Shown: positions 2,457-34,282 of the stretch, one piece after another
Position numbering within the stretch: position 1 is the first letter of the stretch
Layout: every line of letters starts with the position of its first letter
Assembly (NCBI GenBank): GCA_021799275.1
Contig: JAJZAT010000001.1
Span: forward strand, 225,431 to 262,772
DNA: 37,342 bases
Source: Bacillota bacterium
GTDB lineage: Bacteria; Bacillota; Sulfobacillia; JAJZYS01; JAJYTV01
Reading direction: 5' to 3'
The notes under the pieces: generated by a model
Database searches by the model: none
Seen by the model: the letters and a program-made list of their open reading frames with translations, nothing else
Told to the model about the DNA's origin: nothing
Made by a program: the position numbers and the translations under genes

Positions 2457-4255
2457 CAGATCCCCACCTCCACGCGAAGGTCCGGCAGGGCGACGCCCGT
2501 CAGGCGCTCCCCCGCGGTCAGCCGGTCATAGATGGGAGCGAGCCAGGCGAGATCCTCGCCCAGCCCGTGCGCAGGGGCAGGCGCCAGATGGAGGCGCGCC
2601 AGCCACCACGCGACGACGAGGTCCCGCTCGTCGCCCTCTTTGAGCCCCTCGAGAGCCTCTTCGAGCACCAGCAGGAACTCGAGGATCTCGCTGAGGAAGT
2701 CCGCGAGCCGCCGGGCATGCTCGGAGGCGGACGCGGGATGCTCCGCGATCCACGCGATGGCGCCTTCGGCCTCCCGCCAGCGCGCTTGGAGGAGATCCGC
2801 CATCTGCCTGCTCCTCGGGTCGGCGGCGGCGGCCGCCGCGACCCTCTCGACGCGCCGGGCCATCACCAGGTCCGAGCGCCAGCGTGGCGTCATCGTGCGC
2901 AGCACCTCGAGCGCCTGGATGTTGGCCGGCCCCTCCCAGACGGGCAGGACCTGCGCCTCGCGATACATGCGCGCCGTGACGTACTCCTCGACGTAGCCGT
3001 TGCCGCCCAGCACCTCGATCGCGCGGCTCGCGTTGCGCACCGCGAGTTCGCCCGTGCGGTACTTGGCCAGGGCTGTCGTCAGGCGGTGCCAGGCGATCAC
3101 GGGCGCCGCGGGATTCGCCGTGGCGGCGTCGATTGCCCCCGCCGCCTCGAAGGCGAGCGCCGTGCTGGCGCGCAGCTCGGCGAGCATCGTGACGATGGTC
3201 TGCTGCACCATCGAGTGCCGCGCCAGCGGCGCCCCGAAGGCCATGCGCCCCTCGGCATAGAGTTTCGCCTCCAGGTAGACGCGACGGTGGATGCCGGCCG
3301 AGGCGGCCGCGTTGGCGATGCGGGAGAACTCGAGCGCCTCGAGCATGTGCTTGAAGCCGTCGGGCGCTGGCGTCACGAGTTCCGCGAAGGCACCGTCGAG
3401 CTCCAGCTCGCCCGTCGCGAGGCCGGTCGTGCCAAGCTTGTCCTTGAGTCTGCGGATACGATAGGCGTTGGGGCTGCCGTTCGCGAGGCGGCGCGGCATG
3501 AGGTAGAGGCCGAGCCCGCGCGTCCCGTCCGGGGCCCCGGGCGGCCGCGCGGTGACGAGCGCGAGGTCCGCATCGGCGTTGCTGGCGAACCACTTTTCGC
3601 CGTAGAGGCGCACGAGCTGGCCCTGGCCGGGGCCGAAGGCCCGCCGCGCGGAGGCCAACTCCTCGGCCGGCACCTCCCTCGCCTCGGTCGTGGCAAGGCC
3701 CGCGTCCGATCCGCCCTGCTTCTCGGTCACGAAGGTGGCCCCGTCGGCGAACTCGCCTTCCGCGCGCACGGCGAGGAGGGGCAGGTGGCGGGCCTTCTGC
3801 TCGTCGCTGCCGTGCCGCGACAGCACGTAGGCCGTCGAGGCGGTGAGCGTGACCGGGCAGGCGAGGCCGGGGTCGGACTCGCTCAGGAGGTAGAGGAGTG
3901 CGAAGTGCACCGCGTAGGGAAGGGGGTCCTCGCCGTAGTTGCAGCCGATGGTGCCAAGACCGTAGACCTGCCGCACCGACTCCTCGTAGAGCGGGTTGTA
4001 GCGCACCTCGTTGACGACGTTGCCCTGGCGGTCGTAGGTCTCGAGCAGCGGCCGCGCCATGCGGTCCGTATACTCTGCCTGCCGGTCGATCGGACCGCCA
4101 GCGAGCTCCCCCATGCGCACGAGGAGCGGTTCCGCCCGCCGGTACGGTTCGGGGCCCAGGCTGCGGCGCAGCACCTGCTCAAGATCCTTGTCGACCAGGT
4201 AGAAGTTGAGCCCGCGGCCCTCGAGACCCCCATCATGCACGGCCATGCTTCCCAT
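2456..4255 (-). CDS. Acyl-CoA dehydrogenase family protein
   Basis: A 599-residue flavoprotein of the large acyl-CoA dehydrogenase class, about 200 residues longer than the basic fold. It has the FAD and substrate-binding middle region with TEKQGGSDAG and GEKWFASNADADLALV, and the C-terminal helical domain with AIEVLGGNGYVEEY. It also has an added C-terminal helical region after about residue 470, as in AidB/DmdC-like enzymes. It should oxidise an acyl-CoA to the 2-enoyl-CoA and pass electrons to an electron-transfer flavoprotein. Its start lies inside the end of the merR gene (23-base overlap) and its stop overlaps the ligase start. Substrate is not deducible; a role in acyl-CoA degradation is inferred. 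Confidence 0.88.
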   Translation of the reverse strand: MGSMAVHDGGLEGRGLNFYLVDKDLEQVLRRSLGPEPYRRAEPLLVRMGELAGGPIDRQAEYTDRMARPLLETYDRQGNVVNEVRYNPLYEESVRQVYGLGTIGCNYGEDPLPYAVHFALLYLLSESDPGLACPVTLTASTAYVLSRHGSDEQKARHLPLLAVRAEGEFADGATFVTEKQGGSDAGLATTEAREVPAEELASARRAFGPGQGQLVRLYGEKWFASNADADLALVTARPPGAPDGTRGLGLYLMPRRLANGSPNAYRIRRLKDKLGTTGLATGELELDGAFAELVTPAPDGFKHMLEALEFSRIANAAASAGIHRRVYLEAKLYAEGRMAFGAPLARHSMVQQTIVTMLAELRASTALAFEAAGAIDAATANPAAPVIAWHRLTTALAKYRTGELAVRNASRAIEVLGGNGYVEEYVTARMYREAQVLPVWEGPANIQALEVLRTMTPRWRSDLVMARRVERVAAAAAADPRSRQMADLLQARWREAEGAIAWIAEHPASASEHARRLADFLSEILEFLLVLEEALEGLKEGDERDLVVAWWLARLHLAPAPAHGLGEDLAWLAPIYDRLTAGERLTGVALPDLRVEVGI

Positions 4256-6178: not shown

Positions 6179-6955
6179 CTACGTGGAGGACTCCTCTTCC
6201 TTGCGCGCCGCCGCGGCGATCGTCTGCGCGTGGCGCACCAGCTGCGCATTGTCGTTGCAGCGCTCGCCCGAAGGCAGGAGCAAGGTATCCTCCATGCCGA
6301 TGCGCGTCAGGTAGCCGCGGGAGATGGCCAATTGCAGCAAGGGCCAAGCGGTGGCGTCATGCCCGTGCACGAGGCGCGGCACGGACGGCGCCGCCTCGTC
6401 GAGCACCGCGAGGATCGCCTCCGCGGTGCGCAGCGCCGCCTCCGGTTCCTCCTCGCGCGGTCCCACCACCATGACGCGGCACTGCGCCCCAAGGGGGCTG
6501 CGCAGCATGCGCCGCGCGTCCGCGACGGTGGCGAGCACGGCCTGCACGGCGACGCCCTGCAACACCAGCAAGGACGCGGTCTCGTCGGCGTCGTGCTCGT
6601 ACCAGTTCACGGTGGCGAAGTCCGGCCGGTCCTCCCAACTGGCGATCGCCCTGAGGCGCCGCGTCAGGTTCTCCTCGATCGACTCCGCCGTCGACACCCC
6701 AACCTGCATGCCGGGCGCCGCCGCGCGCACCGCGCGCACCGCCGCGCCGACGTGGCGCGCCTGCAGGGATTCCGCGCCTCGCTCGTCGCGGGGGTGGACA
6801 TGCGCCGCAAAGGCGCCCGCCTCGCGGCACGAGAGGGCGGAACGGGCGATCTCCGGCGGGTGGATCGGCAGCGCACGGTGCTCACCGGCGCGCCTCGGTC
6901 CGTTCAGGCAGGCCTGAAGCCAGTTGCGCGACGTGTCAGCGGCCATGGCGGTCAC
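6179..6955 (-). CDS. BKACE / DUF849 beta-keto acid cleavage enzyme family protein
   Basis: 258 residues, a little short for the family (about 270-310). It keeps the metal-site motif HVHPRDERG with His52 and His54, the mid-domain segment RPDFATVNWYEHD, and the signature end RIGMEDTLLLPSGERCNDNAQLVRHA. These enzymes are Zn-dependent TIM barrels that condense a beta-keto acid with acetyl-CoA and cleave it to a CoA ester and acetoacetate-type products, as in 3-keto-5-aminohexanoate cleavage enzyme. Start is GTG 6955 or ATG 6946; neither has a strong ribosome site. It converges with the MFS gene. Substrate is unknown; nearby acyl-CoA genes fit a CoA-thioester role. Confidence 0.8.
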   Translation of the reverse strand: MTAMAADTSRNWLQACLNGPRRAGEHRALPIHPPEIARSALSCREAGAFAAHVHPRDERGAESLQARHVGAAVRAVRAAAPGMQVGVSTAESIEENLTRRLRAIASWEDRPDFATVNWYEHDADETASLLVLQGVAVQAVLATVADARRMLRSPLGAQCRVMVVGPREEEPEAALRTAEAILAVLDEAAPSVPRLVHGHDATAWPLLQLAISRGYLTRIGMEDTLLLPSGERCNDNAQLVRHAQTIAAAARKEEESST

Positions 6956-7055
6956 ATCCCGGATCGGTCAGGCGGTGCGGCGCAACGGGCCCGCAAGAGC
7001 TGGTGCATAGCGGCAAGTGGTGGTCCCCCCCATAAGGCTGCGCCTTGGTGCGGCG

Positions 7056-7679
7056 CTACGGTTGGCGCGTGGCCACGTCCCGCGCCGGCAGGTAGATGGC
7101 GCTCGCGAGCGTCGTCAGGATCCGGCTCAGAGAGATGCGCTCGTCCTCGCCGTCGGGCTCATGGGTCGGCAGCGTCAGGAACTCCCCTTCGCCGAACCCG
7201 TGACGGTCGAAGTGCACGATGCCTCGGGCGTCCCCCAGCTGGATCGAGCACATGATCTCCTGCGCTCCCGGATCCTCGCCCTCCAGCACCGCGGCGCCCG
7301 CCACGTGCGCGATGTCGAGGTCCTGCAGGGACCCTGGCCAGCCGAACTGGAGCGAGATGGCGGCGATCCTCGCCTCGAGCCGGTAGGGCTCGGGCCGGAA
7401 CACGACACAGGCGAAGTCGCTGGTGCGCTCGAGAACCCACGGGTCGTCGGGAAACAAGGCGCGCTCCATGCGCTCGAGACCGCGCGCGATCTTCGAGAGC
7501 TCGTCGATCTGCTCGCGTATGCGGTCGACGGTGCCCTTCGGCCTCCCGCGGCCCGGCCGCGCGCTCTCCCGCACCCCCAGGACATCCTGGGCCTCGTGCA
7601 GCAGGGTGCGGGCCGCCGCGGGATGGTAGGCCCAGAGCAGCAACTGCGCCCTGTCGAGCAGCGCAATGAGGTCTGCCAT
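7056..7679 (-). CDS. Hypothetical protein coupled to upstream unknown gene
   Basis: 207 residues, not recognised. The ATG at 7679 overlaps the stop of the upstream gene (ATGA), so the two are translated together. The N-terminal half is helical and charged (LLDRAQLLLWAYHPAAARTLLHEAQ, then a basic RPGRGRPKG patch, then REQIDELSKIARGLERMERAL). The C-terminal half has alternating beta-like segments (FACVVFRPEPYRLEARIAAI, GIVHFDRHGFGEGEFLTL). No membrane segment or cysteine motif. Context gives only the partner gene, so the function probably depends on that protein. Confidence 0.6.
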   Translation of the reverse strand: MADLIALLDRAQLLLWAYHPAAARTLLHEAQDVLGVRESARPGRGRPKGTVDRIREQIDELSKIARGLERMERALFPDDPWVLERTSDFACVVFRPEPYRLEARIAAISLQFGWPGSLQDLDIAHVAGAAVLEGEDPGAQEIMCSIQLGDARGIVHFDRHGFGEGEFLTLPTHEPDGEDERISLSRILTTLASAIYLPARDVATRQP

Positions 7680-24347: not shown

Positions 24348-24423
24348 GCGCCCGTAGCTCAGTGGATAGAGCGCTTGCCTCCGGAGCAAGAGGCCGCAGG
24401 TTCGAATCCTGCCGGGCGCGCCA
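24348..24423 (+). tRNA. tRNA-Arg (anticodon CCG)
   Basis: A complete 76-nt cloverleaf. Acceptor GCGCCCG pairs with CGGGCGC. The anticodon stem CTTGC/GCAAG holds the loop CTCCGGA with anticodon CCG. The T arm contains GGTTCGAATCC. CCA is encoded at 24421-24423. The integrase gene lies 94 bp downstream, so its 3' end is the likely attachment site of the element. Confidence 0.97.
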
Positions 24424-24460: not shown

Positions 24461-24500
24461 CAGAAACCGAGGCACTCTCGAAAGAGTGCCTCGGTTTCTG
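24461..24500. terminator. Strong bidirectional terminator after tRNA-Arg
   Basis: CAGAAACCGAGGCACTCT and its exact complement (18 bp each) enclose a 4-base loop, with T-rich sequence on both outer sides. It ends the tRNA transcript on the plus strand and the integrase transcript on the minus strand. Confidence 0.85.
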
Positions 24501-24517: not shown

Positions 24518-25744
24518 CTAACGCTTTTTCTTGCTGCCCGTTTTGCGGTTTCCAGTTCGCGTCCCGCTGATCACTGCGTCCAGCCTGTTTGCTGCTTCCC
24601 GTTGCAGGTTCGGAAGGACGTGGCTGTACGTGTCCATGGTCATGTCGATGCGGCTGTGGCCGAGACGTTCTTGGACGATCTTCGGATGGACACCCTCGGC
24701 CAACATAAGCGTCGCCATCGTGTGGCGCATGTCGTGTGGCCTGAAGTGCTGTAGACCGGCCTGTTTGAGTACTCGCGCGTAGTCGCGGTTGCGGATGTGG
24801 CTGTCGGTTTGCGGAGTGCCTTTACTGGTCGGGAAAACGAGGTCGTAGTCAGTCCATGCTGGACCGGCGACCAGGCGCTCGGCAAGTTGGCGGCGCCGGT
24901 GCTCACGCAAGGCATTCAAAGCCATCTCGCTTAGAGCCAGCGACCGACTGCCGGAACGAGTCTTGGTGGGAGCCAGCCGTTCCTGTACTGTTCGCCCTGA
25001 TCGCAGCAAGGTGTGGCGTACTGACAGCATCCCGTCATCGAGATTTATGTCGACCCAACGTAAGCCAAGTAGCTCCCCAAGGCGAAGCCCCGCTGTGATA
25101 GCCAAAACATAAAGTGCGTAGTAGCGGCTTGTTTCTGCGGCTGCGAGAAACGCTTGTACCTCTTCAGGCGTCATGGGAACGATCTCGTGGCGTTCCTGCT
25201 TCGGCGGATGTGCCTTCGACGCTGGATTCGACGTCAGCACGCCCATCTCCACCGCTTCTTTGAAAGCCGAGTGCAAAATCGTGTGGCAGATCGCCACGGT
25301 GCGTGGAGACAGGGTTCCCTTGCCGTCCTTGCGAGGTTTGTTCAGCAGATGGCGATACAGCCTGACCAAATCCTGCGGGCCAACAGTAGACAGCCTCTTG
25401 TAACCAATCTCTGGCGCAATGTGTTCGTGTATAAGAATACGGCGTTGCTTCACCGTATTTGCACGCAACCGAGGTTCACATGAATCCGTAAGCCACTGGT
25501 CAAGGTATTCGCCCATCGTCTGTCGACCAGCTTGTGCGGCACCATTGCTTTGGTACTCGGTCAACTTCTGTGCAAGTATCTTCTCCGCTTCACGCTTACT
25601 CGTTTGTCCCGTGGAGATCCACTGCACCTTAGTTGTGGCCTTGCGTCTGCCTTCGCTTTCGGAGTTCTTCTTACTCCGATAAGGCACTGTGGTATGAATG
25701 ACCACATACCAGATCTTGCCCCTCAGACGCAAATGCCCCTGCAC
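24518..25744 (-). CDS. int: Tyrosine-type site-specific integrase
   Basis: 408 residues from GTG 25744, which has AGGAGG seven bases upstream; the open frame extends further without a better site. N-terminal AP2-like arm-binding region (about 1-60), SAM-like core-binding domain (about 75-170, TMGEYLDQWL and LSPRTVAICHTILHSAFKEA), then the catalytic domain with Arg221 (GLRLGELLGLRW), His337 and Arg340 (PHDMRHT), His363 (LGHSRI) and the nucleophile Tyr373 (DTYSH). All catalytic residues are present, so it looks active. It integrates the element at the neighbouring tRNA-Arg. Confidence 0.95.
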   Translation of the reverse strand: MQGHLRLRGKIWYVVIHTTVPYRSKKNSESEGRRKATTKVQWISTGQTSKREAEKILAQKLTEYQSNGAAQAGRQTMGEYLDQWLTDSCEPRLRANTVKQRRILIHEHIAPEIGYKRLSTVGPQDLVRLYRHLLNKPRKDGKGTLSPRTVAICHTILHSAFKEAVEMGVLTSNPASKAHPPKQERHEIVPMTPEEVQAFLAAAETSRYYALYVLAITAGLRLGELLGLRWVDINLDDGMLSVRHTLLRSGRTVQERLAPTKTRSGSRSLALSEMALNALREHRRRQLAERLVAGPAWTDYDLVFPTSKGTPQTDSHIRNRDYARVLKQAGLQHFRPHDMRHTMATLMLAEGVHPKIVQERLGHSRIDMTMDTYSHVLPNLQREAANRLDAVISGTRTGNRKTGSKKKR

Positions 25745-25812
25745 TCGGACTCCTCCTCTGGTTGGAGTGGTTCGTCCAGAGCCTCCCCGCTCCTGCAGCC
25801 AGACCCTTAGCT

Positions 25813-26040
25813 CTAAGTTTCCTTCCTGGCCTGGCGGAGGACCCACTCTTCAAGGACCGAGACCGGAATGCGGAAATTACGACCGACCTTGTATGCGGGA
25901 AGCTGCTTTGAGTGCAGTAGCTCATAGATCGTCCCCTTCCCGATACCCAGGCGCTTGGCTGCCTCGAGGGGAGAGCACGTCAGAGATGCGCCCACAGGTT
26001 GTCCCCCCTCTTCCGCCAGAGACTCAACTGATCGTGACAT
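25813..26040 (-). CDS. xis: Excisionase-like helix-turn-helix protein
   Basis: 75 residues with the MerR-like excisionase domain: SPLEAAKRLGIGKGTIYELLHSKQLPAYKVGRNFRIPVSVLEEWV (about residues 23-67). This is the usual DNA-binding excise domain, a winged HTH ending in a Trp. AAGGGGG precedes the ATG by about nine bases. Located just upstream of int on the same strand, as a directionality factor would be. It could instead be a small transcription factor. Confidence 0.82.
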   Translation of the reverse strand: MSRSVESLAEEGGQPVGASLTCSPLEAAKRLGIGKGTIYELLHSKQLPAYKVGRNFRIPVSVLEEWVLRQARKET

Positions 26041-27059: not shown

Positions 27060-28076
27060 TCAGCTTGCCGCCTGCTGTTGCGCGTTCGCCTGCCGGCGCT
27101 CGAGCTCGAGGATCACCCGGTTGGCTTCGTCGGTGGTCATTTCCGCCGGCGAGCTGTACGACGTCCCCAGGATCGTGTTGGCCTCCTTGGCCAGGCCGTT
27201 CAGGTCCAACTGCAGGTTCTGGGCGAGATCCCACATGGCGCGGCGCTGGTCGTTCGTGATCGTGCCGCTCGCCGTAGTCTGCGCCGCCGCCGGAGCGGGC
27301 GTGCTCGGCTTGGGCGCTGAGCCCGACGGTGCGCTCGGCTGAGGCGTGGGAGCGGCGGGCTTTCCTACCGGGGCTGGCTCCTCGCCGTCCGAGAGCCACG
27401 CCATGATCGCGTCCGCCACGTCCTTGCTGGGCTTCGCGATGACGCGATCGGCGAGCGCCTCGCAGCGGGACTTGGTGATGACCATGTTGTGGTCGAGGTC
27501 CATCTCGCCCACTACGTCGAACTCGTATTCAGCGCCCTCACGGGTGATCGCGGCCATGCCGACCTTCTTGACTTCCTTCCGCCCGCCACTCTCCGTCTGG
27601 ATGTAGTCCATCTTCGAGCGGAAGGTCGCGATGATGTGCATGTTGGACTGGTGGATAGCCTCGATGAACTCCGTGTGCATCGGCGTGACGTCGGCCCAGG
27701 CGACGTAGGAGTTGCCCTTGTACTTCTTGCTGGCCTGGTCGACCAGCTCGAGGCAGCCGTCCTTGCCGTTCCACTCGTGCGATGCCGAGTCGATCACGAG
27801 GACGTCGAAGCCCTGCGCTTCGGCAGCCCTGATCGCCTGGACGTAGTTGTTGGGATGGAAGCTCGTGAGCTGGAGCGTCTTGAACTTGAACTTGTCGGCA
27901 TACTTGCTGGCCGAGCCGTGCTCGCTGTCGATCACGGCGATCTTCTTGCCCATCAGGGATGCGAGCAGCAGCGCCGTGAAGGTCTTGCCGGCACCCGCCG
28001 GCCCCGTGATCCCGATGCGGCCCTTGGCCTGCGACTTCTTGGCGTCCTCGAACACGAACGGAGCACTCATTCCCAT
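27060..28076 (-). CDS. Phage-type RecA-fold ATPase (AAA_24/Sak4-like)
   Basis: 338 residues from ATG 28076, with AAGGAG eleven bases upstream. Walker A GPAGAGKT (25-32) and Walker B DVLVIDSASHEW (from 91), then SYVAWADVTPMHTEFIEAIHQSNMHIIATFRSK with a sensor-like region. The ATPase core ends near residue 235, and an Ala/Pro-rich linker leads to a helical C-terminal part that could bind a partner. Such ATPases occur in phages beside exonuclease and SSB genes and some (Sak4) act as single-strand annealing recombinases. Here it is next to a Cas4-like nuclease and SSB, which supports a recombination role. Confidence 0.82.
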   Translation of the reverse strand: MGMSAPFVFEDAKKSQAKGRIGITGPAGAGKTFTALLLASLMGKKIAVIDSEHGSASKYADKFKFKTLQLTSFHPNNYVQAIRAAEAQGFDVLVIDSASHEWNGKDGCLELVDQASKKYKGNSYVAWADVTPMHTEFIEAIHQSNMHIIATFRSKMDYIQTESGGRKEVKKVGMAAITREGAEYEFDVVGEMDLDHNMVITKSRCEALADRVIAKPSKDVADAIMAWLSDGEEPAPVGKPAAPTPQPSAPSGSAPKPSTPAPAAAQTTASGTITNDQRRAMWDLAQNLQLDLNGLAKEANTILGTSYSSPAEMTTDEANRVILELERRQANAQQQAAS

Positions 28077-28107
28077 CGTCCAACCATCTCCTTCACTAAT
28101 ACGGGCG

Positions 28108-29154
28108 TCAGCCCGCCTTGGACTTCTTCGGGGCTGTGAGGTCCTTCGGTGTCCAGCGGTCATACCCGGCGCCGATCCTGCGGAACGGCGCGATGGCTTC
28201 CTGGGTAATGACCCCGGCTTCGAGTATGGCGTCGCCGTCGTAGGTGATGCGGCCTGGGATGCGGGACCGTCCAAGAAGCACCTCGCCCGCGACAAGGGCG
28301 CTCGCCTGTGCGCCATCGAGTACCGAGCCGAAGCCGCCCTCGAGCACGTCCTCCCTCACCTTGATGATCGCCACCTGGCCTTCGAGCGCCTGACGGCGCT
28401 GGCGCAGCTTGAGATACTCCTGCGCGTCCGCCGCGAGCTGCGGGGCCTTGGCGATGACCTTCTTCTTCTGCACCTCGGTCTGTGCGCCGCCCCAGCAGTT
28501 CTGCCAGAACGGGCAGCGCCCGGTCGCCCAGGCGCAGGGGAACGAGAAGGCTGTGTAGTCGGCCGGGATCGGCAGCGGCTCCTGCGTCATCTCGATTGCG
28601 CCCTGGATCTCGACGAGATTGGCGATCAGGCTCAGTGCTCGGCGCTCGTTGTACTCGACCGGGAAGGACTTGATCTCGCCCGTCTCCTTGACGCGGTAGG
28701 CGATCTCGGCGGTGGCGCCATGGGCGCGTCCCCAGAAGTGCAGGTACATCGTCACCTGGTCGACGTGGTGCTCCATCGGCAGCCGCTTGAGCGACTTCTC
28801 GGTGGTGCTCTTCGATTCGACGAGATGCTTCAGCGGTGCGACCCAGATGTCGATGTGGCCGGTGCCGTAGGCAGTGCGTACCGCGACCTGGCGCTTCACC
28901 TGGCGCGGGAACTGCTCTGCCCAGAGGTGATAGATGGTCTCCTCGTGCTCGTCACCGGACTCGAAGATCGAGAGCGAGCGCTCATCGGGCTCATCACCCT
29001 CATAGCCGAGTGCTCGCAGCGTCTGCTTGCGACCGCACAGACCGACCTCACTGAGCCGGATCTCGCGCGGGTCGAACTTCTCCTCCTGTGCCCGCTCCGC
29101 GAGTCGTGTTGAGTAGAGCGCCGCGGTGGAACCGGGCGCTGTTGTGACCGCCAA
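28108..29154 (-). CDS. Cas4/RecB-family nuclease with 4Fe-4S cysteines
   Basis: 348 residues from TTG 29154, which has AGGAGG seven bases upstream; a GTG at 29178 would sit in the terminator tail. PD-(D/E)xK motifs: Asp102 in GTGHIDIW, Glu113 and Lys115 in VESKS, then the Gln133-x3-Tyr137 motif in VDQVTMY. Cys40 (GLCGRKQ) and Cys207, Cys214, Cys220 (PCAWATGRCPFWQNC) match the four-Cys iron-sulfur cluster of Cas4 and AddB-like nucleases. A 5'-3' or ssDNA exonuclease role in element recombination is likely. No cas genes or CRISPR array are nearby. Confidence 0.85.
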   Translation of the reverse strand: MAVTTAPGSTAALYSTRLAERAQEEKFDPREIRLSEVGLCGRKQTLRALGYEGDEPDERSLSIFESGDEHEETIYHLWAEQFPRQVKRQVAVRTAYGTGHIDIWVAPLKHLVESKSTTEKSLKRLPMEHHVDQVTMYLHFWGRAHGATAEIAYRVKETGEIKSFPVEYNERRALSLIANLVEIQGAIEMTQEPLPIPADYTAFSFPCAWATGRCPFWQNCWGGAQTEVQKKKVIAKAPQLAADAQEYLKLRQRRQALEGQVAIIKVREDVLEGGFGSVLDGAQASALVAGEVLLGRSRIPGRITYDGDAILEAGVITQEAIAPFRRIGAGYDRWTPKDLTAPKKSKAG

Positions 29155-29180
29155 GGGGTATCCTCCTCTCTGAGACACGA

Positions 29181-29204
29181 AAAGGGCGCCCGAAGGCGCC
29201 CTTT
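29181..29204. terminator. Bidirectional hairpin terminator
   Basis: AAAGGGCGCC and GGCGCCCTTT are exact complements around the loop CGAA, with TTTTCG on the minus strand after the stem. It separates the SSB/79-residue genes from the nuclease gene, yet transcription must pass it unless another promoter exists. Confidence 0.75.
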
Positions 29205-29492: not shown

Positions 29493-29885
29493 TCAGAACG
29501 GCACCGGCTCATCCGCGGTGGTCTCCGTCTCCTGGGGCTCCTCGGTCCCCGCGCCATCGGGCTGACCCTTGGCCGAGTCGAGAAAGCGCACCTGGTCGGC
29601 GACGACCTCGTAGACCTTGTGCCGCACGCCGTCCTTCTCGTAGGAGCGCGTCTGCAGCCGGCCGTCGATCGCGACGAGGCGGCCCTTCTTGAGGTACTGG
29701 GCGACCGTCTCGGCCTGCTTGCGCCAGGCCACGACGTCGATGAAGTCGGCCTCGCGCTCGCCCTGTGCGTTCGTGAAGTTGCGGTTCACGGCCAGGCCGA
29801 GCCTCGTGGTGGCGACGCCGTTCGGCGTGTAGCGGAGCTCAGGATCCCTGGTAAGTCTACCCACGAGGACCACGCGATTGAGCAC
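29493..29885 (-). CDS. ssb: Single-stranded DNA-binding protein
   Basis: 130 residues from GTG 29885, which overlaps the stop of the HNH gene and has AAGGAAGGG upstream. OB-fold of the SSB type: [72 protein letters not shown], then an acidic tail ending DEPVPF, the usual partner-binding tip. Binds ssDNA during element replication and recombination. Confidence 0.94.
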
Positions 29886-30607
29886 TAGACAACCCTTCCT
29901 TCCTTGAATCGGCGATACGTCTCTCTGAGACCGAGCTCGTCGAGCTTGTTGTAGAAGGTCCTCCTCGTTATGCCTAACCGAAGGCACATCGCTTGGACGG
30001 TCAGACCTTCCTGGATGAGGGCCACCATCTCCGCAGCCTTGACTGCCTTATAGCTGGGATGAGAGGCGTGTCCATGAACAGCGGAGTACGCTTTCCGGGC
30101 CCTACTGATCTTGACCCTCGATTCTTGGGAGTACGTGCGACGCCGGTTGTGCTCTGAGGAGTGTCGACCGAACTCCATGAGTTCCAGGTTCTCAATCCGG
30201 TTGTCGTTCTTGACGCCGTTGATGTGGTGGACCACTTCGTTTGCCTGCAAGTGTCGGCCCAGATGCGCCTCCATCACGAGCCGGTGCTCAGCTACGTAGC
30301 CATCCTTACCAGCGCAGGGGTGATCCGGTGCTCGGATGTAGACGTATCCTCGATCGGTAACCCGACGGCCCTTCGAGGGCCTGCTTCGCATCGCGTGGGA
30401 GCGAACGGCCCACTTGACGTCAGACGGTTTGCGAATGTCGCACCGCGTTGCCCGATGTTGGATGCTGGAAACGCTCCGGCCTAAGACCGACGCCATCTCT
30501 TGGTACGTCATCCCGGCGGCTTGGAGAGCGCGGAAGAGCGCCGTCTCTTCCTCTGTCCAGTTCTTCCGTCGACGCTTCTGCCGAGCGTGATCTTTCGCCG
30601 TCGTCAC
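29885..30607 (-). CDS. HNH endonuclease with flanking DNA-binding domains
   Basis: 240 residues from GTG 30607, which has GAGGGGAGG upstream. The N-terminus (about 12-55) is a SANT/Myb-like helix bundle: [38 protein letters not shown]. The central HNH motif is [40 protein letters not shown], with the paired His and Asn of HNH_3 homing-type nucleases. The C-terminus has a resolvase-like [30 protein letters not shown]. No RuvC or PLMP segment, so it is not IscB. A structured RNA lies directly upstream on the same strand. Probably a free-standing homing-type endonuclease. Confidence 0.85.
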
Positions 30608-30632
30608 CCCTCCCCTCGCCGACCCCAGTTGA

Positions 30633-30848
30633 AAAACGCAACTCGAGTAGCGCTTTGCAACGCGAGCTGCGCTAACGAGAAGCGCAAGCCACGCGCCCCC
30701 TCCCAAGGCAAGGTCGGCGAAGCCGCCGAAGGGAAACCTTGCCGAGGGATGAGAGCGCGTGGCAATGCTTTGGTTTGCTCTCACCTACTCGCGCGCCATC
30801 CGCGCTTACCTCTCCTCACCCACGGCCTCGGAGAGAGCAACCAAACCT
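30633..30848 (-). ncRNA. Structured RNA element, copy A
   Basis: Between the nusA-like stop and the HNH start on the minus strand. Near the 5' side GGTTTGGTTGCTCTC can pair with GAGAGCAAACCAAAGC with one bulge. Then a nested set: GCCACGCGC/GCGCGTGGC (30755-30763 with 30688-30696), GGCAAGGT/ACCTTGCC (30736-30743 with 30707-30714), and a CGGC/GCCG hairpin inside. It ends with TACTCGAGTTGCGTTTT (30633-30649). The same nested order and the same 17-nt tail occur in copy B. Class unknown; resemblance to HEARO-type RNA placed before an HNH gene is only positional. Confidence 0.65.
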
Positions 30849-31722
30849 AGCTCGCTGCGCGTTGCGTTGCCCGTACGTCGATCTTCTGCCCGGTAAGCAG
30901 AGCGGCGAGTTTCGCGTTGTCGCCGTGCTTGCCGATGGCGCGGGTCAGGTCGGACGGTGCGACGTAGACGTGTGCGGTGCCGTTGTGCATCTTGACGTCG
31001 GCGATTTGCACTGGTGCGAACGCAGCCGCGATCTGCCGCGACATCTTGTGGTGGTAGAGGATCACGTCGACCCCTTCACCGCCGAGGGCGTTGCGCACCG
31101 CGGCGATCCGGGATGCGTGCTGTCCGAGGCAGGCCCCTACCGCGTTGACGCTGCCGTCGTTTGACCGTACAGCGACCTTGCTCCGAAGGCCGGGCAACCG
31201 GCCAATCTGTACGATCTCCACGCTCCCGTCAGCGACTTCCGGGATCTCGCGCTGCATCACGTAGCGAAGGATCTCTTCGCTTGTCTGGTTCAGCTTTCGG
31301 CCTCCCTCTGAGAGGACCAGGACCTGATCGCCTGGCGTGACATGCAGGGCGCTCCGCAGCCGCTGCGGGATGACGCCGTAGAGGGTGCCGTCAAGGCTTT
31401 CGACGACGATGAACTCCCTCTCCACGTTCGCGACGCGGACATTGTGAACGCCAGCCGGCCACTGCATTGCGCGCTTCCTTGCGGTCTTACGCATGAAGAC
31501 GTCGACCTCGTTCACGAGTTCAGACCAGTAGGTCTTCGCCGGAGTGCGGTCGCCGGCGGCGGTGACGAAGACGATCTCCTGCCCGCGGCGAGTCACGCGG
31601 CACTTGTGCCGACTGGCGATCTTTTTCGCGGCACGCAGTAGCGCATCCAGAGTCTCTTCAGGGTTAAGGCCGTAGCGTTCTCCGAGCTTGTCCAGCACGG
31701 GCACTTGCTTGTCGATCATCAC
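30847..31722 (-). CDS. NusA homologue encoded on the mobile element
   Basis: 291 residues, shorter than host NusA (about 350-490). N-terminal helical domain (1-60: LDKLGERYGLNPEETLDALLRAAKK), an S1-like beta domain (about 95-140: VVESLDGTLYGVIPQRLR, then GDQVLVLSE), then two KH domains. KH1 has IPEVADGSVEIVQIGRLPGLRSKVAV and VGACLGQHASRIAAV (about 160-210), where the loop is GQHA instead of GPKG. KH2 has RAIGKHGDNAKLAALLTGQKIDV (about 261-283) intact. The match is continuous and in order, so homology is firm. NusA modulates RNA polymerase pausing, termination and antitermination. A second gene with NusG similarity is one base upstream. Confidence 0.9.
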   Translation of the reverse strand: MMIDKQVPVLDKLGERYGLNPEETLDALLRAAKKIASRHKCRVTRRGQEIVFVTAAGDRTPAKTYWSELVNEVDVFMRKTARKRAMQWPAGVHNVRVANVEREFIVVESLDGTLYGVIPQRLRSALHVTPGDQVLVLSEGGRKLNQTSEEILRYVMQREIPEVADGSVEIVQIGRLPGLRSKVAVRSNDGSVNAVGACLGQHASRIAAVRNALGGEGVDVILYHHKMSRQIAAAFAPVQIADVKMHNGTAHVYVAPSDLTRAIGKHGDNAKLAALLTGQKIDVRATQRAAS

Positions 31723-31723
31723 G

Positions 31724-32242
31724 TCACGCTCCCTTTCGGGCTTCGGTTTTTTCGGACCATCCCAGGATCTGTTCCCGCTCGTCTGCGGGAAGGGGGCCTC
31801 CGAGCAGGCTGCAGTTGCTTCCCGGAAGGGCCTGCACGAGGTTGGCGGTCTCCTCGTCGGTCATCTTGTGGTCCAGGGCGATCACGAGGTAGCCGGGAAG
31901 GGCCGGCTCGCCGCCGATCGTCGGCCAGAGCACTCTCGCTTCCTGGCAGCGCGTCAGCACCTTGCGCGCGACGTCCTCAGCCTCAGCGGTGCGAAGGTCG
32001 ACGACGTAGAGGTGCGTAGGGGTGATCTCGCTACGCTCAGGGATCGGAGGCGGCACCGCCTTGACGGGCTTCACTCCACTGGAACCAGAGCGCTTACTCC
32101 CCTTCCCCTCGGTGAGACGCATCTTGGGGTAAGGGTTGTGCTTGCGCTGGTGTCCGCCGTAGAGCCTGTCCGTGTTGGCGTCGAGTTGGGCCGCCAGAGC
32201 TGCGGGATCCATGATGCTGACGTTGGTCATCCGCCATGCCAT
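31724..32242 (-). CDS. NusG N-terminal-domain (NGN) paralogue without KOW
   Basis: 172 residues. The N-terminal 75 residues are basic and poorly ordered. Residues about 77-160 follow the NGN fold of NusG: LYVVDLRTAEAEDVARKVL (strand 1, helix 1), VLWPT, LPGYLVIALDHKMTDE, LVQALPGSNCSLLGG and PLPADEREQIL. This is the same order as YVV, VLVPT, FPGYVLV, MTDE, V-x-x-x-PG, FLGG and P-I-x-x-E-E in NusG. No KOW domain follows. AGGAGG lies about ten bases before the ATG. Specialised NusG paralogues such as RfaH and LoaP act as antiterminators on selected long operons, so this is a candidate element-specific elongation factor. Assigned from motif order only. Confidence 0.7.
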   Translation of the reverse strand: MAWRMTNVSIMDPAALAAQLDANTDRLYGGHQRKHNPYPKMRLTEGKGSKRSGSSGVKPVKAVPPPIPERSEITPTHLYVVDLRTAEAEDVARKVLTRCQEARVLWPTIGGEPALPGYLVIALDHKMTDEETANLVQALPGSNCSLLGGPLPADEREQILGWSEKTEARKGA

Positions 32243-32275
32243 CCCTCAACCGCCTCCTCTTGGCCTGAACAGAAG

Positions 32276-32317
32276 CAAGAAAAACTTAGGCCTGGGGACC
32301 GTCCTACGCCCCAGGCC
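32276..32317 (-). terminator. Intrinsic terminator at the end of the long leader
   Basis: GGCCTGGGG and CCCCAGGCC (32289-32297 with 32309-32317) form a nine-pair stem followed on the minus strand by TAAGTTTTTCTTG. It stands only about 35 bases before the NusG-like ATG, leaving no room for a separate promoter. Confidence 0.85.
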
Positions 32318-32924
32318 ACCCCGCGTGTCCGAAGACACCGAGGACCACAAATGCCGCTTTAGCGGCTAGTAAGCGTTCTAAGTTCCCCTACTAGCGGTTT
32401 CGCGTTCAACCGGGATCGCAGCAGGTTGCAGGTCGGATTCGGCTGGAACCGCCTCTTCCGTGGTGACGTGACACCCCGCAGTCCACTTGAAGTGGCTCCG
32501 CTTAGTCCGCCTTTACCCGCTACCCGTCCCGCGTTGCCGCATTCAGGGTTGTCAACGCTTGCGCGTTGCCCTCCAAACACGTTGTTATGGTTGAGCCGCC
32601 CGGAGGTCTGCGGACTCAACTTTGGTGAGTGTTGACTGGCCCACGATTTCTCACCTTGGGGATCGTGGGACCATAGAGCCTGCCTTGCGATAACGGCTGC
32701 CAGGGATTTTCTCTGCCCCGGCCAAGCTCACCTCAGCCTGCTCTACGGTTTATCTCGGTGCTCCGGCAACAGTTGCTCAGCTTCGTTTCCGTCCGTCCCC
32801 ACTCACGTCCTGGCTTTGGGTGCCCTCTGCCATTGGCTTGCGGTTTCTCGCAGATCTCCACCTTCGCGATGCTGTTGCCTTCGCTTAGCGGCCACCGAGG
32901 TGGCCGGGGGCTCTGTGCCCCTTG
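32318..32924 (-). ncRNA. Long hairpin-rich non-coding leader RNA
   Basis: About 610 bases with no convincing ORF, with a near-consensus promoter at one end and a terminator at the other. Stems seen include GGCCACC/GGTGGCC (32890-32905), CCCACGAT/ATCGTGGG (32640-32669), GTTGAGCCGC/GCGGACTCAAC (32590-32620), CAACGC/GCGTTG (32553-32568), CGGTT/AACCG (32395-32412), CTAGTA/TACTAG (32366-32394), GCCGCT/AGCGGC (32353-32366) and a UUCG hairpin near the end. The gaps are rich in A and G on the minus strand, as in folded RNAs. Size and phage-like setting resemble the ROOL, GOLLD or OLE ornate RNAs, but no match to a named class could be made. Confidence 0.7.
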
Positions 32925-32929
32925 TTGTG

Positions 32930-32958
32930 ATCATAGTGCGTATTTTGTTCCCTGTCAA
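32930..32958 (-). promoter_or_regulatory. Near-consensus sigma-70 promoter of the leader RNA
   Basis: TTGACA (32953-32958) and TATGAT (32930-32935), read on the minus strand, are exactly 17 bases apart. This is the best promoter seen in the window and should start transcription near 32923. Confidence 0.88.
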
Positions 32959-33010
32959 CTTTTTCACGCATCAGATGCTTTTTCGTCTTCATCATGCGCT
33001 TCTCAGCACT

Positions 33011-33026
33011 AGTATTTTTTCATACT
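33011..33026. promoter_or_regulatory. Candidate operator for the XRE repressor
   Basis: AGTAT and ATACT flank six bases (AGTATTTTTTCATACT), and outer GCAC/GTGC halves extend the dyad. It lies just before the repressor ATG and about 55 bp upstream of the divergent leader promoter -35, a fitting place for a lysogeny-type switch. Confidence 0.45.
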
Positions 33027-33047: not shown

Positions 33048-33392
33048 ATGACCAGGGACAAGGAACCGCCAGCGATCTGGCGGGAGATTGGCAGTCGCGT
33101 TCGACATTTTCGTCGCAGCCAGGGCAAGCCTGTCGACTGGCTGGCTGAAGCTGTTGGTCTTCAGAGAGTTCAGATTGTACGGATCGAGGCCGGGTTGGTG
33201 GGAACCACTCTCGAGAGGTTAGATCGGATTGCGAATGCTTTGGGGGTGCAGATGAGCGATCTCATGCCGCCGCCGGACGTAGCCGAGAAGAGCGATTTGG
33301 AAGTAGGCTTCCGCGGGCGGGGGTTATCGGAGCAAGAGATCAAGCGGGTTCTCGAGTTCATCGAACTTGTCGAGAAGGCCCGACCCGAGTAG
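33048..33392 (+). CDS. XRE-family (Cro/CI-like) transcriptional repressor
   Basis: 114 residues from ATG 33048. HTH of XRE type at about 12-70: IGSRVRHFRRSQGKPVDWLAEAVGLQRVQIVRIEAGLVGTTLERLDRIANALGVQMSDLM. The C-terminal helical tail (SEQEIKRVLEFIELVEKARPE) may dimerise. It is divergent from the long-leader operon and followed by an ImmA/IrrE-type gene, the standard pair in which the protease inactivates the repressor. The gene is less GC-rich than the chromosome. Confidence 0.85.
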   Translation: MTRDKEPPAIWREIGSRVRHFRRSQGKPVDWLAEAVGLQRVQIVRIEAGLVGTTLERLDRIANALGVQMSDLMPPPDVAEKSDLEVGFRGRGLSEQEIKRVLEFIELVEKARPE

Positions 33393-33438: not shown

Positions 33439-33467
33439 TTGCCAAATGGATGTCCTTGTTATCTAAT
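33439..33467 (+). promoter_or_regulatory. Promoter for the ImmA/IrrE-like gene
   Basis: TTGCCA (33439-33444) and TCTAAT (33462-33467) are 17 bases apart, each one base from consensus. It would drive the protease gene independently of the XRE gene. Confidence 0.6.
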
Positions 33468-33511
33468 TGGGACTATCCGACAGCACCTGTCGAATTTTGG
33501 TGAAAACCCCA

Positions 33512-33521
33512 GGGGGGGGGG
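33512..33521 (+). repeat. Ten-G homopolymer at the protease ribosome site
   Basis: A run of ten G, preceded by CCCCA, lies eight bases before the ATG at 33529 and must act as, or next to, the ribosome-binding site. Such tracts are slippage-prone and could vary translation. Confidence 0.75.
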
Positions 33522-33528
33522 ATCTGTT

Positions 33529-34134
33529 ATGTCCCTAGATCGGGCCATGCTGCGTCGCGAATCCTACGACACTGCCCAGCAGTTTCTGAGCGTCAGTGAT
33601 CCATCGTTGGCACGTTTTCCGAGGCCAACCAAAGCACTTGCTTTTTACTGGGGTTTCAGGGTAGTGGAGCTTCCGAGGTCCGTTGCGCATTTGGATCACG
33701 GGATGATCATCGGACATCGGATCATCGTGGCTCGGGAGCGTCGCTTCTGGGAGCGGCAGTTGACCATTGCTCACGAGCTTGGTCATTTCGCTCTGAAGGC
33801 ATTTAACGACCAGCAGGAGGAAGAATGTTCTGCGTTCGGGTCGGCGCTACTCGTTCCATTCGAAGACCTTGATGATTCCCTGCGCTTTTTTCTTGGATCT
33901 GGGCCGTACAGCATCGGTGCCCTCGCTTGGAGCGAGGCTGAGACCGGGGTTGTCAGCAGACTTGTTCATCATTACGCCGTAGGATACAAGGCGTTGATCT
34001 GGGCGATTGGAGACTATGGCCTTCTTCAAGGTGTTCCTGAGTGGCATGGCGGGGACTCTATTGACTCGTTGATGGTGGAGTACCGGAGTGCTTGGGAACA
34101 GGCCCGAAAGCGCTTCGAGACTTCTGCCGACTAA
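33529..34134 (+). CDS. ImmA/IrrE-type metalloendopeptidase
   Basis: 201 residues from ATG 33529. Zinc protease motif HELGH in QLTIAHELGHFALKAF (about residues 77-92), followed by EEECSAFGSALLVPFEDL with the third metal ligand Glu, as in ImmA and IrrE. The rest is helical. In phages and ICEs, ImmA cleaves the neighbouring ImmR-type repressor to start the early genes. An open frame extends upstream to 33439 but contains the promoter and the G-run, so the later start is preferred. Confidence 0.88.
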   Translation: MSLDRAMLRRESYDTAQQFLSVSDPSLARFPRPTKALAFYWGFRVVELPRSVAHLDHGMIIGHRIIVARERRFWERQLTIAHELGHFALKAFNDQQEEECSAFGSALLVPFEDLDDSLRFFLGSGPYSIGALAWSEAETGVVSRLVHHYAVGYKALIWAIGDYGLLQGVPEWHGGDSIDSLMVEYRSAWEQARKRFETSAD

Positions 34135-34146
34135 CAACACCTTCGA

Positions 34147-34253
34147 GCCACTCCCGCGACCCGAAGGCAAGGGCGGCCGTCAGGCCGAGCGCAGCGTCCC
34201 TTGCCGCAAGGGGAGCGGGTGTGGCAGCGGAAACGGTACTCGAGTTGCGTTTT
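34147..34253 (+). ncRNA. Structured RNA element, copy B
   Basis: Begins 12 bases after the protease stop. Nested stems: GCCAC/GTGGC (34147-34151 with 34221-34225), CCCGC/GCGGG (34153-34157 with 34215-34219), GGCAAGGG/CCCTTGCC (34166-34173 with 34198-34205), and CGGCC/GGCCG around GTCA (34174-34187). It ends with TACTCGAGTTGCGTTTT (34237-34253), identical to copy A. The last pair of the GGCAAGG stem is G-C here and T-A in copy A, a compensatory change. No HNH gene follows this copy. Confidence 0.62.
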
Positions 34254-34282
34254 GAGGTCTGCCCGTTGCGGTCCTAAATTTC

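Follow-up and report, generated by a model that had tools for sequence, protein, structure and literature searches.

Specialised NusG paralogues are already known. In Bacillus, the NusG paralogue LoaP recognises a UNCG hairpin and acts as an antagonist of NusA (PMC12691694). In conjugative plasmids of the pLS20 type, the conAn system associates an RNA and a protein, the conAn2 RNA being responsible for antitermination and the ConAn1 protein giving processivity (PMC8955417). An antitermination RNA, canT, is also carried by the integrative element Tn916, within a 452-bp fragment (PMC11658703).

The locus described here is best explained as the place where the main early operon of an integrative element linked to tRNA-Arg begins. 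It opens with a long leader RNA followed by genes for relatives of NusG and NusA. On our best reading, which goes by analogy, this module is logically closest to conAn, with LoaP-, canT- and put-like parts. As in conAn, RNA and protein are the first things encoded in the main operon of a mobile element, terminators lie inside this operon, and loading would be promoter-specific. However, two proteins are involved here, relatives of NusG and NusA, and the RNA closes with a terminator-like hairpin ahead of their genes; the comparison is one of layout, not of ConAn1 sequence. With LoaP, the locus shares the NusG family and the occurrence in Bacillota, and the window's leader has a C-UUCG-G hairpin, comparable to the UNCG hairpin of LoaP targets, next to a terminator-like hairpin; the NusA mimic could likewise antagonise NusA. 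In contrast to LoaP, the NusG relative is devoid of KOW domain and carries a 70-residue N-terminal extension, a NusA relative is encoded alongside, the leader is long, and the UNCG loop is not conserved in a sibling element. Like canT, HK022 put and the Bacillus EAR, the leader is a structured cis RNA near the head of a terminator-bearing operon, but those RNAs are described without an element-encoded protein, and no sequence relation of the leader to Rfam families was found. Finally, the early leftward operon of lambda (N, nutL, xis, int) has the same plan, with a repressed early promoter, antitermination factor(s) first, then recombination genes, and xis and int last. In lambda, however, N is a small peptide, whereas relatives of host Nus proteins and a far larger RNA are found here.

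What appears to be new is the dedicated NusA relative and the NusG-NusA pair tied to a long leader RNA; the function would be of a known kind, processive antitermination. The initial annotation had held the pair to be undescribed as a module, and a full-text literature search for mobile NusG-NusA pairs, phage or mobile NusA paralogues and phage NusG, with most subscription papers outside its scope, returned nothing relevant.

Organisation of the early operon

The window, that is, the whole stretch of 37,342 nucleotides analysed, comprises the final 37 kb of contig G000:C28, which measures 263 kb and belongs to a 3.1-Mb genome. The features of the locus are as follows.

24348-24423: tRNA-Arg, adjoining the integrase gene
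24518-25846, minus strand: tyrosine integrase, on the tRNA-Arg side
25813-26040, minus strand: excisionase-like gene (with the integrase gene, 24518-26040)
27060-28316, minus strand: AAA protein (Sak4-like, phrog_1366), recombination module
28108-29178, minus strand: Cas4/RecE-like exonuclease, recombination module
29183-29202, minus strand: intrinsic-terminator-like hairpin within the operon, AGGGCGCC-UUCG-GGCGCCCU-UUU
29493-29987, minus strand: single-strand DNA-binding protein (SSB), recombination module
29885-30784, minus strand: HNH endonuclease with helix-turn-helix (HTH) domains
30847-31722, minus strand: NusA relative, 291 aa
31724-32242, minus strand: NGN-only NusG relative, 172 aa
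32277-32923, minus strand: non-coding leader RNA including its terminal hairpin (from folding, codon-position GC and the same place in the sibling)
32280-32317, minus strand: terminator-like hairpin, 9-bp stem, -21.8 kcal/mol, followed by UAAGUUUUU
32319-32343, minus strand: C-UUCG-G tetraloop hairpin, directly 5' of the terminator-like hairpin
32470-32512, minus strand: leader motif common to the sibling, AGGCGGACUARGCGG, a spacer and GCGGGGUGUC
32930-32958, minus strand: sigma-70-type promoter TTGACA-17-TATGAT, 11 of 12 consensus bases
32968-32978: perfect palindrome GCATC-A-GATGC, just upstream of the -35 box
33011-33026: inverted repeat AGTAT-TTTTTC-ATACT
33048-33392, plus strand: Xre-type HTH repressor, divergent from the leader promoter
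33439-34134, plus strand: IrrE/ImmA-like metalloprotease

Starting from tRNA-Arg, the order is int, xis-like gene, Sak4-like AAA, Cas4/RecE-like, SSB, HNH, NusA-like, NGN, leader and the divergent HTH/IrrE pair. A single strand carries everything from the leader promoter through int, an arrangement resembling a lambda-type early operon. The leader promoter is the sole promoter-like site found by a promoter scan within 11.3 kb, and transcription probably starts near 32923. Judged from their sequences, the palindrome is a candidate operator for the divergent HTH repressor and the inverted repeat a candidate second operator.

Several observations concern the surroundings and boundaries of the element. 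Between tRNA-Arg and int, a bidirectional terminator-like hairpin of 12 pairs has T-runs on both sides (24467-24495). On another contig of the genome (G000:C61, locus L035), positions 3595-3740 are a 96% copy of the 3' part of tRNA-Arg and of the int-side sequence; a related attachment junction is therefore present elsewhere in the genome. This copy adjoins ArsB-, ArsC- and MerR-like genes and corresponds to another attachment junction or to tandem elements. The sequence AACGCAACTCGAGTAGCG lies upstream of the HNH gene both in the window (30620-30660) and in the sibling element (L195:1250-1290), and the reverse complement of its core occurs again at 34240-34260, towards the right end of the element in the window; it may mark element ends or be a target of the HNH protein. 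Also common to both elements is CCCTTGCCGCAAGRGGAGCGGGYGTGGCA (window 34195-34235; L195:4640-4680), which is probably close to the right boundary, and no att site matching the right end was seen up to the end of the window's contig. Elsewhere in the window, two riboswitches lie on the minus strand, one of the ydaO (c-di-AMP) type close to Kdp-like genes for potassium transport (Rfam RF00379, 15204-15335) and one for TPP (RF00059, 22374-22478).

The leader RNA and its terminal hairpin

Between the promoter and the NGN start, about 640 nt are devoid of any plausible gene. Codon-position GC of the open reading frames in the leader is flat (0.60/0.59/0.61, vs. 0.69/0.42/0.80 in the adjoining genes), which rules out a hidden protein gene, and the 86-aa frame found there has no ribosome-binding site. 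The leader strand folds better than its dinucleotide shuffles (z -4.4, none of 20 shuffles as good), the excess being mostly in 32641-32760 and 32281-32400. When compared with the 4227 covariance models of Rfam 15, the leader gave no match at the gathering score and none relevant up to E 10, chance snoRNA matches excepted; a known large RNA class is ruled out by this absence. No boxA-like sequence was found in the leader. An exact 16-mer of its GAAC-loop hairpin in a viral contig (L192) was taken as chance, with no further similarity around it.

The terminal hairpin is strong and is not a textbook terminator, its U5 run starting 4 nt past the stem (UAAG-UUUUU), and because of this displacement a standard terminator scan omits it. 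Eight of the nine bases past the stem are A or U, which would make for a weak hybrid. The NGN start follows about 35 bases past the U-run, behind AGGAGG. The initial annotation had placed here a near-consensus promoter, about 610 bases of gene-free structured RNA, a strong intrinsic terminator, an NGN gene within 35 bases of it and, further along, a hairpin at 29181-29204. All of these are borne out, the gene-free RNA at its slightly greater length and the internal hairpin as a good intrinsic-terminator hairpin, except that the leader terminator keeps its strength as a hairpin and loses its standard form through the offset U-run.

The NusG and NusA relatives

Searches of Pfam, PHROG and NCBIfam returned no match for the 172-aa protein, which does not reach the PF02357 cut-off either; a search of its own genome with PF02357 recovered the housekeeping NusG alone. 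A profile comparison with NusG, as the initial annotation had suggested, was carried out with hhalign. Against an alignment of NusG from the same order, the protein scored 26.0, the best of 60 shuffles reaching 18.1, and 28.8 (best shuffle 19.4) once the sibling was added. The top 12 PDB matches of its model in Foldseek were all NusG, RfaH or Spt5; the model is a single-sequence AlphaFold prediction of poor quality (pLDDT 46.5), with the order strand-helix-strand-strand-helix-helix. These two lines of evidence support a NusG relative with an NGN domain, as first proposed. The protein stops about 12 residues past the last NGN helix, so that the C-terminal KOW domain is absent, likewise in the sibling. 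Both proteins share the N-terminal motif DPxxL...G..RK.NP.P..R.

The NusA-like gene starts one base past the NGN stop, as gene coordinates confirm, and the two genes are translationally coupled. The 291-aa product had been described as a NusA homologue with S1 and two KH domains. The tandem KH1-KH2 of NusA is indeed present (PF13184, 1e-17; TIGR01953, 1e-42 over residues 144-286), the pair spanning residues 144-289, with about 42% identity to host-type NusA. The S1 domain was not confirmed. Residues 1-145 scored 16.8 against NusA profiles, below shuffles reaching 21.9, and AlphaFold pLDDT is under 50 for residues 49-147; neither sequence nor model thus supports the N-terminal (polymerase-binding) and S1 domains of NusA. 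The acidic repeats are absent too. The TIGR01953 equivalog cut-off (253 bits) is missed by the window protein (146 bits) as by that of the sibling (31 bits). In the window protein, the GxxG of KH1 is replaced by GQHA and GKHG is kept in KH2; since the KH1 motif is lost here and the KH2 motif is altered in the sibling, simple KH RNA binding is disfavoured.

Other short KH1-KH2 proteins were seen in this phylum. Two such NusA-like proteins or fragments lie outside nusA in G011, a genome of the same order (L033:7602-8111 and L034, about 6600-7070), in pilus-assembly (CpaE/CpaF-like) and VirD4-like clusters, with no NGN recognised alongside. In this order, operons for surface structures or transfer perhaps make recurrent use of NusA KH pairs. 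Extra KH_5 matches in eight other genomes of the phylum were set aside, nearly all being under the cut-off, as were KH-query matches in phage records, which look like ordinary host NusA.

Truncated Nus relatives could also act in the opposite direction, the KOW-less NGN protein and the shortened NusA strengthening the leader terminator and thereby exerting negative feedback on the operon. NusA boosts the dfn intrinsic terminator and Bacillus NusG boosts pauses (PMC12691694), and the offset U-run of the leader hairpin could need a helper. Still, RfaH and LoaP, the characterised specialised NusG paralogues that work with a signal in leader RNA or in DNA, favour readthrough, and such feedback would shut off the remaining operon; we regard termination or pausing enhancement as improbable.

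The sibling element and a possible private antitermination module

A search for the same pair in other elements, also suggested at the outset, yielded one case with the layout kept. Among 154 genomes of the class, the NGN search gave one convincing relative (E 2.9e-9), of the same family, on contig C90 of G007 (locus L195). There, IrrE and HTH genes lie on one strand and, on the other, leader, hairpin, NGN, NusA-like, HNH and SSB. The conserved gene order indicates a genuine module whose parts are inherited together. Identities between the two elements are 24% for NGN (E 2e-12), 18% for the NusA-like protein, 40% for HTH, 63% for HNH and 66% for SSB; the AAA protein of another locus, L096, is 74% identical to the Sak4-like AAA of the window, and L096 and L195 appear to come from one genome (G007), the nusA match having the same contig number and coordinates. 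The RNA, NGN and NusA-like protein evolve much faster than the adjoining genes.

The sibling leader is up to 980 nt long. Its promoter-like sequence, TTGTCG-17-CATTAT (8 of 12 consensus bases), was found by eye, under the scan threshold. The counterpart of the UNCG hairpin has a different loop. The terminal hairpin is followed by AAAGUUUU, about 30-40 nt 5' of the NGN start, and the tail pattern (U/A)AAGUUUU is common to both elements. In each, a terminator-like hairpin stands 30-45 nt ahead of a strong ribosome-binding site. The NusA relative (277 aa) overlaps the NGN stop (TGATG) and matches TIGR01953 at 1.1e-7, with model positions 96-338 aligned. The two leaders are not alignable overall, demonstrable conservation being limited to one 25-nt motif. 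The spacer before GCGGGGUGUC measures 18-19 nt in the window, where the extra bases can form a small hairpin (CCACUU-CAAGUGG), and is missing in the sibling. Three gap-tolerant scorings found 0-2 of 200-300 shuffled pairs as good as the motif; under a fourth, the counts rose to 25 of 300 and 24 of 200. No common fold is predicted around it, the local folds of the two leaders being different.

No third member of the module was found in viral contigs or in 398 genomes of the phylum, for a total of two, and viral contigs, genome contigs and phage and plasmid records yielded no close relative of NGN, the NusA-like protein or the RNA. None of 95 loci with a Sak4-like protein carries a relative of NusA, NGN or the RNA; the module is therefore no standard companion of that type of replication genes. 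One phage contig, L060 (IMGVR_UViG_3300031749_000453), has a Sak4-like AAA 62% identical to that of the window, without NusA, NGN or leader relative.

Like GOLLD or ROOL, the leader might be a large non-coding RNA that stands on its own; the NGN and NusA-like genes would then simply lie downstream and be expressed by readthrough or from a weak promoter of their own, their products possibly being binding partners of the RNA. Its own promoter and hairpin end, its length, its folding excess and its same place in the sibling agree with this. Nevertheless, the lack of a relevant Rfam match up to E 10, the very low primary sequence conservation between the leaders and the attenuator-like position of the hairpin in both elements make it unlikely. 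It also seems rather doubtful that both proteins work in trans on host transcription, taking over globally from NusG and NusA to the benefit of the element, the leader being an autoregulatory attenuator that limits their dose. Such a role would suit mimics of host factors encoded immediately 3' of a terminator-like hairpin in both elements, but an attenuator needs no 600-800 nt, and RNA and proteins have diverged jointly and fast, which suggests that their specificities are matched.

By comparison, we judge the chances to be about even that the element possesses its own processive antitermination module, made up of the leader RNA, NGN and the NusA relative, which allows readthrough to the recombination genes, xis and int. 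This reading is favoured by the types of protein, by the conservation of the layout and of the leader motif in the sibling, by the terminator-like hairpin that immediately precedes the protein genes of either element, by the presence of one or more good intrinsic-terminator hairpins later in the operon (29202-29183, with a UUCG loop), by the C-UUCG-G hairpin right before the leader terminator, reminiscent of LoaP targets (PMC12691694), and by the precedents of conAn, canT and LoaP. It is disfavoured by the missing UNCG loop in the sibling, by the lack of boxA and by the restriction to two members. Antitermination is a reasonable inference drawn by analogy with known paralogues and from operon layout, and the roles given to each part below are conditional. 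The divergent HTH repressor would keep the leader promoter off until the IrrE-like protease removes it. The released promoter would then produce the long structured RNA and, by default, much transcription would stop at the leader hairpin, then at internal hairpins such as that at 29202-29183. The NGN protein may sit on the polymerase at the NusG site, but lacks the KOW domain by which Rho or the ribosome would be recruited. The NusA relative may replace host NusA at the RNA exit, its KH pair touching the leader; displacement of host NusA would be another route to the LoaP-like antagonism of NusA. Together with the nascent RNA, the two proteins would form an element-specific complex reading through into the recombination genes, xis and int. 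As the genes for both proteins lie 3' of the leader hairpin, either leaky readthrough would start a positive feedback, or an initial cis effect of the RNA would be carried further by the proteins.

That this private Nus pair, a NusG NGN and NusA KH domains, forms with one large fast-evolving RNA a complex specific for the element's transcript is a serious possibility, which we place somewhat short of even. The rapid joint change of the RNA and both factors is what one would expect of a matched recognition set. If this is true, the locus offers a small reconstitutable system (one RNA, two proteins and the host polymerase) to probe terminator bypass by RNA and Nus factors, and it would show the extent to which a mobile element can replace host elongation factors.
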